A DNA stretch of 64,000 nucleotides from the NCBI GenBank assembly GCA_029070965.1, contig JAIEBI010000022.1:1-64000 (forward strand), written 5' to 3'. The notes under the pieces are model-generated. The model saw nothing but the letters and a program-made list of their open reading frames with translations, was not told the origin of the DNA and did not search any database. The DNA comes from Clostridiales bacterium (GTDB taxonomy: Bacteria; Bacillota; Clostridia; Christensenellales; Pumilibacteraceae). Position numbers and translations under genes: made by a program. Positions 11,173 to 32,314 of the stretch are shown here, one piece after another; positions within the stretch are counted from its first letter, which is position 1; every line of letters begins with the position of its first letter.

Positions 11173-11248
11173 GCTACTGTGGCTCAGTTGGTAGAGCAGC
11201 TGATTCGTAATCAGCAGGTCGGCGGTTCGAGTCCGCCCAGTAGCTCCA
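11173..11248 (+). tRNA. tRNA-Thr (CGT anticodon), CCA encoded
   Basis: Cloverleaf folded by eye: acceptor GCTACTG/CAGTAGC, anticodon arm GCTGA-TTCGTAA-TCAGC, T arm GGCGGTTCGAGTCCGCC. Confidence 0.93.
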
Positions 11249-11291
11249 AACGCCCCCTCATAAAGAGGGGGCGTTTTTAGCTACTGGGCGG
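11233..11291. repeat. Long palindrome spanning tRNA-Thr 3' end, terminator and inverted copy of tRNA 3' end
   Basis: CCGCCCAGTAGCTCCAAACGCCCCCTC / GAGGGGGCGTTTTTAGCTACTGGGCGG, 25 of 27 positions paired. Confidence 0.9.
11250..11278 (+). terminator. Intrinsic terminator after tRNA-Thr
   Basis: ACGCCCCCTC-ataaa-GAGGGGGCGTTTTT. Confidence 0.9.
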
Positions 11292-11324
11292 TATGACCGT
11301 GCGCCGCGTGTGCTTTGTTTAAAG

Positions 11325-23600: not shown

Positions 23601-23690
23601 AAAAGAGGTTGGGATTCTTCACTGCGTTCAGAATGACAAAAATAATTTTTTTGTCATTCCGAGCAACGCGAGGAATCTCAACCTTTTTAT
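23601..23690. repeat. Palindromic REP-like element (TTTGTCATTCCGAGCAACGCGAGGAATCTCAACC type), imperfect inverted repeat
   Basis: Arms aggttgggattcttcactgcgttcagaatgacaa / ttgtcattccgagcaacgcgaggaatctcaacct. Confidence 0.8.
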
Positions 23691-31940: not shown

Positions 31941-32017
31941 GGCGGCATAGCTCAGCTGGCTAGAGTACTCGGTTCATACCCGATTGGTCACTGGTTCGAA
32001 TCCAGTTGCCGCTACCA
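31941..32017 (+). tRNA. tRNA-Met (CAT anticodon), elongator-like, CCA encoded
   Basis: GGCGGCATAGCTCAGCTGGC...TCGGTTCATACCCGA...ACTGGTTCGAATCCAGTTGCCGCTACCA. Confidence 0.93.
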
Positions 32018-32065
32018 ATACAAGGGCGTCCTACGGGACGCCTTTTGTATTGGTAGCGGCAACTG
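32003..32065. repeat. Long palindrome spanning tRNA-Met 3' end, terminator and inverted copy of tRNA 3' end
   Basis: CAGTTGCCGCTACCAATACAAGGGCGTCC / GGACGCCTTTTGTATTGGTAGCGGCAACTG. Confidence 0.9.
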
Positions 32066-32314
32066 TTTGCGCGAAACACCCGCAGTCTTGTTTGTAAATA
32101 TAGCGATAAATATTAATGATACAGTTTATTATGATAAACGACAAATATTATTCTGCGGGGGTTCGCTAGGCGCTCGGCGGAACGCCGAAGCCCGCCCGCG
32201 CAGTTCGCGGGCAATCCAGTTGCCGCCGTATCGTTTATGTACACGCGTTAATTCGAGCTTTATAATGTGCTTGCATTTATGCCGTGAATGTGATAATCTT
32301 AACACGAGGTAACA

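Follow-up and report, generated by a model that had tools for sequence, protein, structure and literature searches.

Why should a tRNA gene be followed, beyond its own terminator, by an inverted copy of its own 3' end? This question is raised by the tRNA-Thr(CGT) gene located at positions 11173-11248 (+ strand), which was found by both ARAGORN and Rfam in the 64,000-nucleotide stretch of DNA analyzed here, referred to below as the window.

Palindromes behind tRNA-Thr(CGT) and tRNA-Met(CAT)

The inverted repeat described in a first-pass annotation of the locus was found to be real. Its 27-nt arms (11233-11259 and 11265-11291) are separated by a 5-nt loop and are 93% complementary (25/27), the two mismatching positions being the CC of the CCA. 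The 3' half of the tRNA, including the T-loop, the 3' strands of the T-stem and acceptor and the CCA, constitutes the left arm of a hairpin termed H1, the first hairpin of the element described below. The inner part of H1 is the tRNA-Thr terminator hairpin AACGCCCCCTC-ATAAA-GAGGGGGCGTT with its T-run (11249-11278, +), which is in register with the flanking tRNA arms, and it is followed by the inverted copy of the acceptor and T-stem 3' strand (AGCTACTGGGCGG; 11279-11291, +). The next nucleotides (11292-11308, +; TATGACCGTGCGCCGCG) are a remnant of the 5' strand of a second hairpin, H2, and match complete copies from sister genomes, such as GGCATGACCGTGCGCTGCGG.

A similar arrangement is present at tRNA-Met(CAT) (31941-32017, +), which carries the near-complete element of the window. 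The trailer and terminator hairpin ATACAAGGGCGTCC-TACG-GGACGCCTTTTGTAT (32018-32050, +) form the inner part of H1, followed by a perfect inverted copy of the tRNA 3' end (TGGTAGCGGCAACTG; 32051-32065, +), and the palindrome arms 32003-32023 and 32045-32065 match at 21/21 positions. An ungapped palindrome scan of the whole window has revealed that the tRNA-Thr and tRNA-Met sites are its two best palindromes, tied with each other. When 200,000 random 27+5+27 placements were scored, five reached 21 matches and the maximum, 25, was the score of the Thr site itself. Another long imperfect palindrome with 41-nt arms (23602-23688), of the GATTCTTCACTGCGTTCAGAATGACA type, lies away from tRNA genes and resembles an ordinary MITE.

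The tRNA-tail analysis was extended to the genome of the window (1.81 Mb, 71 contigs, 32 tRNAs) by comparing the reverse complement of each acceptor plus T-stem with the 110 nt downstream of the same gene. A score of at least 8 against the own tail was obtained for 11/32 tRNAs, and for 2.4% of the non-cognate pairings (permutation p ≤5e-5). Cognate scores therefore exceeded non-cognate ones in the permutation test proposed in the first-pass annotation as a way of refuting the observation, and its statements that each inverted copy matches its own tRNA, and that the arrangement is common to several tRNAs, hold beyond chance. A chance match was thus ruled out by the palindrome scan, the random placements and this genome-wide permutation.

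Anatomy of the complete element

In the less decayed copies, the inverted tail belongs to a compact, gene-less element that measures about 180-270 bp. The CCA-terminated 3' end of the tRNA, the terminator and the inverted copy are followed by H2, a GC stem with an AT-rich loop, by the motif GTTCGCTA, by the hairpins H3 and H4 and by a further direct copy of the 3' end of the tRNA, which begins in the T-loop. Thus, a functional tRNA is followed by the element and then by a direct T-loop-to-acceptor copy, and elements of this length have no room for an integrase gene. The element lies between G57 and A58 of the T-loop and brings with it a new 3' end for the tRNA (A58 to CCA), a terminator and the inverted version of this end. 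Where decay is least advanced, the inverted copy extends through the T-loop (..GGATTCGA) ahead of H2, and GAGTAG stands before H2 in many copies.

In the near-complete Met copy, H2 spans 32078-32159 (+), with an AT-rich loop between the stem strands ACCCGCAG (32078-32085) and CTGCGGG (32153-32159). The core (32161-32212) comprises the motif GTTCGCTA (32161-32168, +), H3 with an internal loop (GGC-GC-TCGGCG-GAA-CGCCGA-A-GCC; 32169-32192, +) and H4 (GCCCGCG-CAGTT-CGCGGGC; 32194-32212, +), both hairpins showing covariation across copies. The right direct copy of the tRNA-Met 3' half, from A58 of the T-loop (AATCCAGTTGCCGC; 32213-32226, +), is read as the displaced original tRNA end. The Thr copy of the window is a truncated left half of the element, in which H1 and part of H2 have been kept; it ends at 11308, after the first strand of H2, and the H2 3' strand, H3, H4 and the right copy are missing.

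Complete copies with direct and inverted tRNA parts are found behind the same tRNA-Thr in sister genomes, recR-linked as in the window. Their order is CCA, terminator, reverse complement of the tRNA tail, ACCGTGCGCYGCG..GCGCACGGTTCGCTAGGCGCTTGCG..CGCAAAG.. hairpin and AGTCCGCCC, the latter being the second direct tRNA copy from the T-loop on. The element is present at the Thr site in some species and absent in others. In G004, tRNA-Thr and the element appear inverted relative to recR and a downstream ORF when compared with the window (L051/L079, G004:C5), an arrangement that possibly arose by inversion at the palindromes.

Copy number and distribution

The first-pass annotation had considered that the Thr and Met copies were not one repeat family inserted twice. 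This was wrong, and both belong to one family with a conserved, covarying core and tRNA-specific arms. A pattern scan of 84,980 species yielded 34 copies in 32 stretches, carried by uncultured Clostridia, Clostridiales and 'Christensenella' MAGs, two contigs labelled Roseburia and Anaerocaecibacter muris (Pumilibacteraceae). Invariance within GTTCGCTA..CGCTTGCG is by construction because the pattern fixed part of it, and the covarying pairs 19-44 and 20-43, together with the whole of H4, were left free. The core pattern had no match in IMG/VR viral contigs, and a simple 'GAGTAGCRCGGCG' motif search gave a background too high to be used.

With a covariance model, five well-scored members of the genus, a group of gut bacteria, were found to have 8-16 copies per genome, with 12 in the genome of the window. 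A sister genus had a single copy, and the rest of the 297 genomes sampled from the order had none; elsewhere, a phylum sample of 399 genomes gave only two weak matches. For ten of the 12 copies of the window's genome, a tRNA gene of the same orientation lies no more than about 250 nt upstream. A full tRNA on the same strand precedes 36 of the 61 distinct cores by 60-190 nt; the remaining cores are placed at contig edges, behind tRNA fragments or in tandem units. Many copies form such tandem units. An assembly artefact was ruled out because many separate assemblies, among them that of an isolate, contain the same structure, and plain unrelated terminators were ruled out by the shared core. Such an element was not described in the literature reached by keyword searches of incomplete coverage. 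In this sequence-only study, confidence is limited by copy number, phylogenetic dependence and MAG quality.

Match of the arms to the host tRNA

In the 36 copies with a full tRNA, cognate scores were higher than non-cognate scores for the inverted copy (7.9 versus 5.2) and for the right copy (11.1 versus 4.8), and H2 stems matched their own partner better than others (7.6 versus 5.2), with p ≤2e-4 in the three cases. The CC-to-AA mismatch at the CCA, whose recurrence had been raised as a question in the first-pass annotation, recurs in part: the TGG was changed or unalignable in about one third of 36 related copies, with variants that include TTA, TAA and TTT. A one-base deletion in the inverted copies clusters at positions 65/66, the acceptor/T-stem junction, in 8/15 tRNA kinds, a count in which copies from related species are not independent; neither window copy has this junction bulge.

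Two orthologous loci are informative about how the arms relate to the neighboring gene. At the recR-linked Thr locus of G002 the acceptor is different (GGAAGC) and the inverted copy differs correspondingly (GCTTTCGGG). A clean pair of empty and filled sites was sought at tRNA-Met and none was obtained; the search found the ortholog of the Met locus in the sister species G004, where tRNA-Met is a degenerate pseudogene and the inverted and right copies are unchanged. The arms are therefore not continuously rewritten from the adjacent tRNA.

These data bear on a purely replicative origin, in which fold-back (template-switch) errors at the terminator hairpin would copy the tRNA 3' end in inverted form and keep correcting it, with no mobile element involved. 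Such copying would automatically account for each copy fitting its own tRNA, and it agrees with the perfect register between the window arms and the terminator stem and with the in-register T-run that stands in place of TGG. However, the conserved covarying core and the second direct tRNA copy come after the inverted copy, the G004 inverted copy did not track the decay of its tRNA, and copying would not predict a bulge at one fixed tRNA position, so that this origin is considered unlikely.

Covariation and folding

The analysis of H3 and H4 revealed that 98.7% of the cells were paired and that 11/16 pairs were changed on both sides, with 74 cells showing double changes versus 19.7 in shuffles; slid controls collapsed. 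Only 5 of about 295 free cells (1.7%) were G-U pairs, counting for the element only pairs left free by the search pattern, versus 22/235 (9.4%) in tRNA acceptor and T-stems (p about 1e-4). From this scarcity we infer hairpins that are folded as DNA, the pattern not being the one expected of a functional RNA. When the Met element was folded as DNA (z = -6.5), the inverted copy paired with the right direct copy, and H2, H3 and H4 were arranged around one junction. DNA folds of four other copies resemble that of the Met copy. The inverted copy can pair with both direct copies, often leaving an unpaired base at the acceptor/T-stem junction.

The first-pass annotation had turned to RNA, suggesting a comparison of terminated and read-through transcripts for processing by RNase P or RNase Z. 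A device of this kind, in which the 3' end of the tRNA and the inverted copy would base-pair within a read-through transcript and so block or direct 3' processing or control termination, fits the complementarity to the tRNA tail and the covarying hairpins, but it is rather improbable. Besides the scarcity of G-U pairs, the inverted copy sits behind a strong terminator, many copies are decayed, just 11/32 tRNAs of the genome score 8 or more, the taxonomic range is narrow, and no family other than tRNA reached its gathering score at the element in an Rfam scan, which also argues against such a device. A processing or read-through role is unsupported by copies that stand behind the terminator and are often decayed or truncated, by the unchanged inverted copy next to the G004 tRNA-Met pseudogene and by other genera that, except for one copy, lack the family.

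Proposed mechanism and candidate enzymes

Taking these results together, the inverted copy is best read, with a probability of about 0.55, as the 3' arm of H1 in a non-autonomous element that integrates into tRNA T-loops and is recognized as a folded DNA strand. From the distribution and folds described above, we infer both mobility and folded-strand recognition. A recombinase acting in trans would integrate the element into the T-loop, recognizing a single DNA strand that is folded, through pairing of the inverted copy with the direct copy of the 3' end of the tRNA, into a four-way structure of P1, H2, H3 and H4. The tRNA-like arm would be used twice, rebuilding the tRNA and providing half of the recognition hairpin, and the inverted copy would have to match the tRNA arm because this arm serves both purposes. 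Copies would decay once inserted, the Thr copy of the window being left with H1 and part of H2. The right copies at L124, L137 and L140 end in the host's own terminator, unlike the left one, and look like displaced native tRNA ends. Against this reading, several copies at a single locus look vertically inherited, both window copies lack the junction bulge, and ordinary crossover in the T-loop fails to explain one core family with arms fitting many tRNAs.

None of the recombinases, Y1 transposases and reverse transcriptases searched was linked to the element as its mobilizing enzyme. Tyrosine recombinases were present in 13/13 genomes searched. Only one of them is widely conserved, being shared by almost every member of the genus, and it is an XerS-like housekeeping protein; tyrosine recombinases of comparable length are also encoded by element-free families of the order.

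Single-strand transposition by an IS200/IS605-like Y1 transposase or a REP/RAYT system could also move hairpins, with GTAG before H2 and CTA before H3 as guide-like tetranucleotides. Bulged hairpins and DNA-type covariation would suit recognition of a single strand, and GAGTAG lies ahead of H2 in many copies. Nevertheless, this route seems doubtful, since a Y1 transposase was found in only 4/20 genus genomes, G000, G006 and G012 lack it and yet have 12-14 copies or pattern matches (12 copies in G000), and a restored tRNA with a second copy is not a normal product of such elements. Being absent from 16/20 genomes, the Y1 transposase was rejected as a universal mobilizer.

A retroelement-like origin has been considered as well, in which the inverted copy would be a tRNA primer-binding site like that of LTR retrotransposons, or the terminated tRNA transcript would self-prime a reverse transcriptase. 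TGG and the adjoining complement of the tRNA 3' end together have the form of a primer-binding site, and a purine stretch such as AAAAAGAAA recurs, by eye, in the H2 loop. This origin is very improbable, as the element is devoid of coding capacity, the inverted copy also spans the trailer and terminator, and the window's genome contains no reverse transcriptase; found in just 3/20 genomes, this enzyme was rejected as a universal mobilizer.

Comparison with known systems

The element resembles the tRNA 3'-end integrative elements and genomic islands of the tyrosine-recombinase type, including tycheposons, in its insertion in the tRNA 3' half, the restored tRNA, the displaced fragment present as a direct repeat and the tRNA 3' ends arrayed in tandem. 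An additive island with repeated tRNA-Lys tails has been described, and such islands are large and carry cargo, tycheposons being 4-200 kb (PMC10872708). In contrast, the element has about 180-270 bp and no gene, and a single family, with an inverted copy and four hairpins, occurs on many tRNAs.

Integron attC sites present an unpaired base, a variable terminal loop and RYYYAAC ... GTTRRRY core sites (PMC3053210). A similar fold-based recognition would explain the variable yet self-complementary arms, the unpaired base and the variable terminal loop of the element. Self-complementary arms with an extrahelical base are present in the family, although the window copies have no bulge. Unlike attC, the element does not conform to GTTRRRY/RYYYAAC, its invariant GTTCGCT within GTTCGCTA being partly fixed by the search pattern; it has two extra side hairpins and the tRNA T-loop as target, and there is no integron integrase above the cut-off, the two tyrosine recombinases of the genome (XerS-like and phage-type) scoring far below that of TIGR02249.

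MITEs and REP-BIME repeats are likewise short, gene-less, palindromic, lineage-restricted and present in several copies per genome; the element differs in lacking a fixed terminal inverted repeat, in having arms of host-tRNA sequence and in being strongly tied to tRNA genes. The primer-binding sites of LTR retrotransposons have in common with it a TGG that leads into sequence complementary to a tRNA 3' end, whereas the element adjoins its own tRNA gene and has neither LTR nor reverse transcriptase.

Other small units at tRNA ends

A second cassette type occurs in the same tRNA arrays (L245, G006:C15; L249, G006:C12; L246, L247, L113, L117 and L142), with a left end CGGCGCACTTGTTATATATCAAGCACCCGCCATAGTGCC and a right end ATTCGTTTTAGGTTAYGAYTGCTC joined to the acceptor tail and CCA. 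It carries 1-3 genes, encoding an HNH nuclease, an HTH protein plus ATPase or a UvrD-like helicase with PD-(D/E)XK, which look like defense cargo. Repeats of the TTTTTACTTATTCACTCTTCACTC type, found directly behind tRNA terminators at L085, L109 and L117, represent one more small repeat associated with the ends of tRNA genes. At L074 (G017:C1:219400-221400), from a different family of the order, three units of about 157 bp stand in tandem behind tRNA-Thr(CGT); each finishes with 33 nt that repeat the 3' end and terminator of the tRNA, and the units look unrelated to the core family. Duplicates of tRNA-Thr at L075 and L077 (G010:C31 and G001:C12) have their anticodon region interrupted by an inserted palindrome (TAATACTCGCTTCGCTCGTGCTWCGTAGCAGCAG), another small element inside a tRNA pseudogene. 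As a speculative proposal of low probability, the tRNA T-loops of the genus could be platforms for structure-recognized, integron-like recombination, with the small elements as empty cassettes and the 1-2 kb neighbors as cargo of the same enzyme.

Biological meaning

Transfer RNA genes are classic docking sites for mobile DNA, and the known elements are usually each tied to one tRNA. The inverted tail behind tRNA-Thr is probably explained by a previously undescribed family of minimal, tRNA-anchored elements. One minimal family with host-tRNA arms would imply either structure-based targeting of the universal T-loop or acquisition of tRNA sequence on insertion, a question that the cultured relative Anaerocaecibacter muris makes testable. 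As a caution, inverted tRNA tails located past terminators can be scars of mobile elements and not RNA regulation.
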